18,610 nucleotides of DNA from Proteobacteria bacterium UBA6729 (GTDB lineage Bacteria; Pseudomonadota; Gammaproteobacteria; Porifericomitales; Porifericomitaceae): positions 26,246 through 44,855 of the forward strand of contig DKIB01000036.1 of assembly GCA_002454015.1 (NCBI GenBank), written 5' to 3'. Positions 9,135 to 9,375 of the stretch are shown here, piece by piece; position 1 is the stretch's first letter; every line of letters starts with the position of its first letter. Position numbers and translations under genes: made by a program. A model generated the notes under the pieces. The model was not told the origin of the DNA and did not search any database. It saw only the letters and a program-made list of their open reading frames with translations.

Positions 9135-9375
9135 GTGGCTTTACAGGCCCCACGGGGGCGCTGTGCATCGGTCGCCGCGGGCAGTGGTTACCGGCTCCCG
9201 GTGGTCCTGAAACGGCGTCCGGGTCAATGCGGAGCAGGAAACGAACGACGGGTCGGGTCCTGCACGACAAGCATGGCTGCAAGCGCTGTGCTCCCCGGCA
9301 AGCTGCCTGTCGCCCCGTACGGCATCTGGCGATACGGTGCAGTCATCCCCCGGTCGCGCAGGCCGGGAGCGACGG
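9135..9375 (+). pseudogene. Decayed, internally deleted copy of the amtB 3' end
   Basis: Bases 9136-9222 align with 10602-10693 inside amtB (codons about 273-304), with about 77 of 87 aligned bases identical by hand count and one 5-base deletion after GTGCATCGG. The alignment then jumps about 235 bp: from 9219 the sequence follows 10928-11080, i.e. the last 24 amtB codons, its end, and the spacer beyond. Shared landmarks are TGCGGAGCAGGAAA (9228-9241), CCTGCACGA, CCCCGGCAAG, CCCCGTAC and GGTCGCGCA (9352-9360). The frame is broken by the 5-base deletion and by substitutions, and no start exists, so it is a relic. It implies an earlier tandem glnK-amtB duplication or a displaced amtB tail. It fills most of the 385-bp ubiK-glnK gap. 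Confidence 0.85.

Follow-up and report, generated by a model that had tools for sequence, protein, structure and literature searches.

A relic of the glnK-amtB unit in the spacer upstream of glnK: probable remains of a tandem duplication

In Haloferax (PMC3831643), a whole amt-glnK pair has been duplicated, an event suggested to be rather recent in the genus. Deletion removes pseudogenes from bacterial genomes (Kuo and Ochman 2010, PMC2916853), and in Buchnera decaying pseudogenes occupy intergenic spacers (PMC3164680). Our literature search for a glnK-amtB pair duplicated in tandem returned no match; papers that name both genes together with two copies and tandem exist.

The locus described here lies in a window of 18,610 nucleotides (the whole stretch of DNA analysed) from Proteobacteria bacterium UBA6729, whose assembly spans 1.5 Mb and is 86% complete. 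Pfam domains give the gene order yifB - ubiK on the minus strand, followed by glnK - amtB and a crp/rhodanese-like gene on the plus strand, where yifB, ubiK and crp/rhodanese-like are names that we presume from these domains.

Like the Haloferax case, this one involves a whole pair; however, Haloferax keeps both pairs (PMC3831643), whereas one copy at our locus is present as a relic. The likeness to the pseudogenes of Kuo and Ochman (2010, PMC2916853) lies in the loss of sequence by deletion from a disrupted copy, but the relic, unlike those pseudogenes, duplicates an adjacent live pair and can be compared with its parent base by base. As in Buchnera (PMC3164680), the spacer is a decayed gene; here, however, that gene is a tandem duplicate with its parent still adjoining, which differs from the Buchnera cases. 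The relic is a clear but ordinary case of decayed tandem gene duplication. It illustrates that an unremarkable promoter spacer can turn out to be a duplicated gene late in its decay, one that still aligns with its parent letter for letter and in which one deletion breakpoint, at least, can be read.

Ordered remains of the unit in the ubiK-glnK spacer

The spacer between ubiK and glnK contains, on one strand, fragments of glnK, of amtB, of the amtB 3' end and of the sequence that follows amtB, in the same order as in the live unit (Table 1). This same-strand homology to the adjacent unit includes its non-coding flank. Each block was scored against the live unit and compared with 2000 dinucleotide shuffles; all four blocks exceeded every shuffle, and a rerun with other gap costs agreed. 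The earlier note had described an ordered, same-strand relic of the amtB 3' end with its downstream sequence before glnK, a description that holds; the relic is larger than first noted, a glnK fragment preceding the amtB blocks. As for the lesions named there, the 5-base one is seen in the alignment as a 5-base deletion, and the internal deletion is present but measures 239 bp by coordinates, where about 235 had been claimed. These two deletions, together with the fusion of the glnK fragment to an amtB fragment, are disabling lesions.

Table 1. Features of the glnK-amtB locus and of the relic upstream of it (positions in the window)
Feature	Position	Strand	Remarks
ubiK-like gene, 75 aa	8821-9048	-	Pfam PF04380, 40.6 bits (cut-off 37.2); start from ORF reading; divergent from relic
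Possible first-copy glnK leader remnant	9057-9071	+	13/15 identical to 9383-9397; suggestive only
glnK relic	9096-9131	+	Matches live glnK 9646-9682; score 21, shuffle maximum 16 (0/2000)
amtB relic	9135-9223	+	Matches live amtB 10601-10694; 5-base deletion; 79/89 identical; score 64, shuffle maximum 22 (0/2000)
amtB 3' end relic	9224-9286	+	Matches 10934-10998; 48/63 identical plus 2 gap columns; score 27, shuffle maximum 17 (0/2000)
Post-amtB relic	9287-9375	+	Matches 10999-11079, clear to about 9367; 49/70 and 9/11 identical; score 35, shuffle maximum 21.5 (0/2000)
Live glnK leader	9376-9448	+	Predicted sigma-70-like promoter 9383-9412
Live glnK, 112 aa	9449-9787	+	Pfam PF00543; sole match to live glnK in the assembly at E <= 0.001
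Live amtB, 405 aa	9784-11001	+	Pfam PF00909, E 7.1e-114; open throughout
Live amtB downstream spacer	11002-11114	+	Counterpart of relic tail, by alignment

Along the relic, ungapped identities are 33/36, 46/53, 17/18 and 24/30, followed by the counts of Table 1 for the non-coding tail; the stretch 9242-9256, alignable only with gaps, is excluded from them. None of the 18,916 real 36-base stretches of the contig, taken from both strands, reaches the score of the glnK fragment against glnK (maximum 18). The blast E-value of this fragment, 4.6e-5, is insufficient by itself, since comparably good single upstream hits occur at other loci (2.1e-6 at L078 and 5.5e-5 at L093, with weak ones at many loci). 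A possible mark of the 5' end of the duplicated segment is the suggestive 15-base leader match at 9057-9071, which 35/3000, 48/3000 or 82/3000 shuffles equal or better, depending on the version tried. The same bases weakly match the ubiK leader of G001, a genome of the same family: of 16 tests of leaders and spacers against G001 and its family relative G002, the comparison of 9049-9095 with the G001 spacer was the single conspicuous one (28/2000), roughly as many as chance would give.

At E <= 0.001, the hits of segment 9100-9450 within this assembly were limited to the segment itself and two parts of the live unit, and 55 relatives gave none (one genome of 56, its own; none of the 55 belongs to its genus); the three same-family genomes gave no DNA match to the relic. 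The earlier note had considered that the block might instead be a regulatory element conserved in relatives lacking a second amtB. No such conservation was seen among the 56 genomes at this threshold, and 9096-9375 is unmatched in the G001 and G002 leaders, so a conserved regulatory element was rejected. We also compared by blast the upstream sequence of 115 units, at most 1.5 kb each, with the respective unit, overlapping loci being counted apart. Ordered high-identity upstream blocks occurred here alone; the remaining strong hits were true tandem paralogues, which alone equalled the two amtB blocks (E 3e-26 and 5e-23). No intact duplicate of the same age was found in the 55 relatives, all from outside the genus.

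The window matched no Rfam family at gathering score, the two ORFs overlying the relic matched no Pfam domain, and no hairpin stands out in the relic and leader (z -0.98, 0.33, -1.37, -1.45). A search for an amtB relative in viral contigs gave 17 stretches that matched a pattern, none of which was confirmed.

Could the relic be an assembly artefact or a chance similarity? Where the window begins, the scaffold does have an exact repeat next to a run of N, which is suspect. However, the relic differs from the live unit at 10/89 to 21/70 positions, depending on the block, the window itself contains no N, and every shuffle stayed below the block scores; such an explanation is extremely unlikely. 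The relic is confirmed as real, and its reading as the remains of a tandem glnK-amtB duplication is well supported.

Origin of the duplicate

We placed the relic among 19 chosen amtB genes with FastTree, using either 137 columns or the full alignment, and with IQ-TREE and its ultrafast bootstrap. It is most closely related to the live copy of its own genome: FastTree gives this sister relationship a support of 1.000 on both alignments, and IQ-TREE splits the two from the rest with a bootstrap of 100. The branch of the live amtB is near zero in length, and that of the relic is 0.13-0.18. The two group with the same-family genomes G001-G003 in the full-length trees (0.998; 100), a group that the 137-column tree by itself fails to recover. 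Across the 137 coding bases that could be mapped, identity of the relic to the live amtB of its genome is 0.876, and with none of the 18 other genes does it exceed 0.635.

Some relatives carry a tandem of their own. In G011, G014 and L042 a glnK-amtB-glnK-amtB array stands at the same locus as the window unit and agrees with it in genes, orientation and neighbours (in G011, ubiK and yifB to one side and a crp-like gene to the other; in G014, yifB and a crp-like gene; in L042, yifB), which argues that this type of event occurs at the locus. Tandem pairs were also found in L074 (Reyranella) and L109 (Rhodospirillaceae), and L044 has both pairs, although its second glnK is matched only in part, two N lying within or after it, and its second amtB is cut by the contig end. 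L043 has amtB-glnK-amtB, the first glnK appearing as a weak trace alone (E 0.016). Closer to the window genome, G001 and G002 each have one glnK-amtB pair and G003 has one amtB near a contig end.

Is the relic then a remnant of this old glnK1-amtB1-glnK2-amtB2 tandem, retained by some relatives, with no new duplication at all? The old tandem occupies the same locus in G011, G014 and L042, and parts of it in L043 and L044, as this origin would have it. However, the old second amtB copies form one clade with the single-copy L057 (1.000; 100), and the relic does not group with them. The old tandem copies are older paralogues, both present in G011, G014 and L042, whose main alignments (G011, G014, L042 and L043) show DNA identities of 66.6 to 71.5%, whereas the mapped coding part of the relic and the live amtB are 87.6% identical and have their 3' flank in common. 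A late gene conversion across the unit would be needed to reconcile these observations with the old tandem, and we consider this origin highly improbable. The relic, as sister to the live amtB, is therefore a copy from its own lineage and not a leftover of the older tandem. Unless gene conversion intervened, the duplication would then be younger than the split from G001-G003 and distinct from the old tandem.

Alternatively, a diverged allele of a close relative may have recombined in beside the resident unit. The relic has an asparagine at residue 385 in common with P0001 (an AmtB 93% identical) and P0002, which is absent from the live protein, P0003 having a serine. This asparagine can be simply ancestral, though, and is expected under duplication as well, while the remaining relic-specific residues occur in none of P0001-P0003; recombination of this kind is very unlikely.

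Duplication within the lineage is by far the better reading: the glnK-amtB unit was very probably duplicated in tandem and its upstream copy eroded by deletions, as the earlier note had proposed. The ordered blocks, the glnK fragment and the sister position of the relic to the live amtB all argue for it. The duplicated copy included glnK, since a glnK fragment stands before the amtB fragments.

Several observations were made in passing at the other loci. In L042 and L044, the first glnK is 51-57% identical to the window GlnK and the second 76-85% (partial in L044); in L042, the first amtB is nearer to the window amtB than the second, opposite to its glnK copies. Region 1100-1924 of L043, at the position of the first glnK of L042, has only a weak match to glnK residues 97-111 and is perhaps a decayed glnK1. 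L045 (Candidatus Marithrix) has a full amtB plus a second one at 8748-9134, in which residues 99-130 are joined to 308-405, apparently another decayed amtB.

Decay of the upstream copy

The duplicated segment would have measured about 1.7 kb, beginning somewhere around the glnK leader and extending some 80 bases beyond amtB; we infer the event and this left end from the ordered homology that is observed. The second copy would be the working glnK-amtB, and the upstream copy would not have been kept, drifting and being shortened by deletions. It would have lost 5 bases, 239 bp between two near-identical 10-base repeats, its 5' end, and a stretch of about 0.9 kb that starts inside glnK and ends two thirds of the way through amtB. 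These losses are seen as gaps against the live unit; their order and mechanism are what the gaps suggest. The remnant amounts to about a sixth of the unit, occupies most of the ubiK-glnK spacer and most likely serves as nothing beyond spacer. The ends of the 239-bp deletion lie in an imperfect 10-base repeat (GGCGTCTGGG and GGCCTCCGGG), an arrangement suggestive of slippage between such repeats.

When the gapped stretch 9242-9256 is excluded, 17 coding differences separate the relic from the live gene over 137 bases. The majority of ten outgroup genes assigns 14 of them to the relic and 2 to the live gene, with 1 tied (p 0.004); closer proteins shift one difference to the live gene (13 relic, 3 live, 1 tied; p 0.021). 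By codon position the differences number 6/46, 7/46 and 4/45, whereas all six live-gene comparisons peak at position 3; with few sites, Fisher p-values for this contrast range from 0.049 to 0.15, one being below 0.05. Such a pattern would fit neutral decay, on the few sites available.

Identity falls along the relic, as had been noted earlier: differences go from 10/89 in the first amtB block to 15/63 in the amtB end, the gapped stretch being counted (p 0.047), and 21/70 in the tail (p 0.44 against the second block, 0.031 against all coding sequence). Without the gapped stretch, the p-values are 0.59 for the first against the second amtB block and 0.004 for the tail against coding sequence. 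Since selection on the live gene keeps coding divergence low, it accounts for part of the drop, the tail diverging more. It does not clearly account for the drop inside the amtB part (10/89 versus 15/63), which is not strictly predicted by a single event followed by even drift and so counts against our reading; the cause may be chance, or gene conversion confined to the first block.

The glnK promoter and sigma-54 control

The earlier note had suggested that the current glnK promoter arose within what was once sequence downstream of amtB, and that this could explain the missing sigma-54 site. Our results lend support to neither idea. Scanning 9040-9460 for promoters gave two sigma-70-like sites, against 0.1 in shuffles: one at 9383-9412 for glnK, which stands beyond the recognisable relic, and one at 9110-9082 toward ubiK. 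The live leader does not match the relic tail significantly (2495/3000 shuffles do as well or better) and was rejected as a copy of it; its match to the amtB-crp spacer is weak (32/3000).

The sigma-54 scan covered 300 bases before each glnK with a weighted consensus, whose sequence and weights are those we assume for this factor, and 200 base shuffles each, overlapping loci being counted apart. It gave p <= 0.05 for 21 of 93 glnK genes, the window glnK being among the other 72. The window genome has a sigma-54 gene. With the NtrC model (cut-off 558.6 bits), it scores 395.7 and G001 379.8, while G002 and G003 reach 640.6 and 640.4; NtrC is above the cut-off in 32 of 56 genomes. G002 combines this with a 14/15 sigma-54-like site at -117 before glnK, and no glnK was found on the G003 contig, which stops about 130 bases beyond amtB. 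In this comparison of three genomes, with the window assembly 86% complete, G001 and the window genome have neither a sigma-54-like glnK site nor NtrC above the cut-off. Since G001 has no relic and yet lacks the site, the relic is not needed for its absence and was rejected as its cause. The window locus offers a testable case of a nitrogen-control unit rewired where NtrC seems lost.

Among the tandem loci, G011 and G014 have no sigma-54-like site within 300 bases of glnK1; a 14/15 site, scored without shuffles, lies about 920-930 bases before it, ahead of a TorF-like gene (PF09694). A TorF-like gene (PF09694) stands between ubiK/yifB and glnK1 in L037 and L038, with a sigma-54-like site ahead.

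Has the relic been put to new use? Its glnK fragment might provide the -35 half of a divergent ubiK promoter, a reading compatible with the duplication. The first hexamer of the minus-strand site 9110-9082 falls within the glnK relic, and sites of this kind are in excess over shuffles in the region, but this one fits 9/12 consensus positions only; we hold such re-use to be unlikely. A broader scenario, a dosage response, is somewhat less likely still. After loss of NtrC and of the sigma-54 promoter, a tandem copy would have raised the expression of the unregulated unit until a sigma-70-type promoter took over; the copy would then have been dropped, leaving the relic as a scar partly re-used in the ubiK promoter. 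If true, this would tie gene amplification to the loss of a regulator.

A perfect inverted repeat, CATGAT and ATCATG separated by five bases (9397-9413), overlaps the predicted -10 hexamer of glnK and is a possible operator. Elsewhere in the window, a 12-base direct repeat, TGATATGCCCAC, lies at 11098-11122, at the start of the crp-like gene. Positions 1-82 are repeated exactly at 199-280, adjoining a 6-N scaffold gap; this 82-base repeat, carried by the end of a gene that we take from its translation to encode an aminotransferase, is probably a scaffolding artefact.
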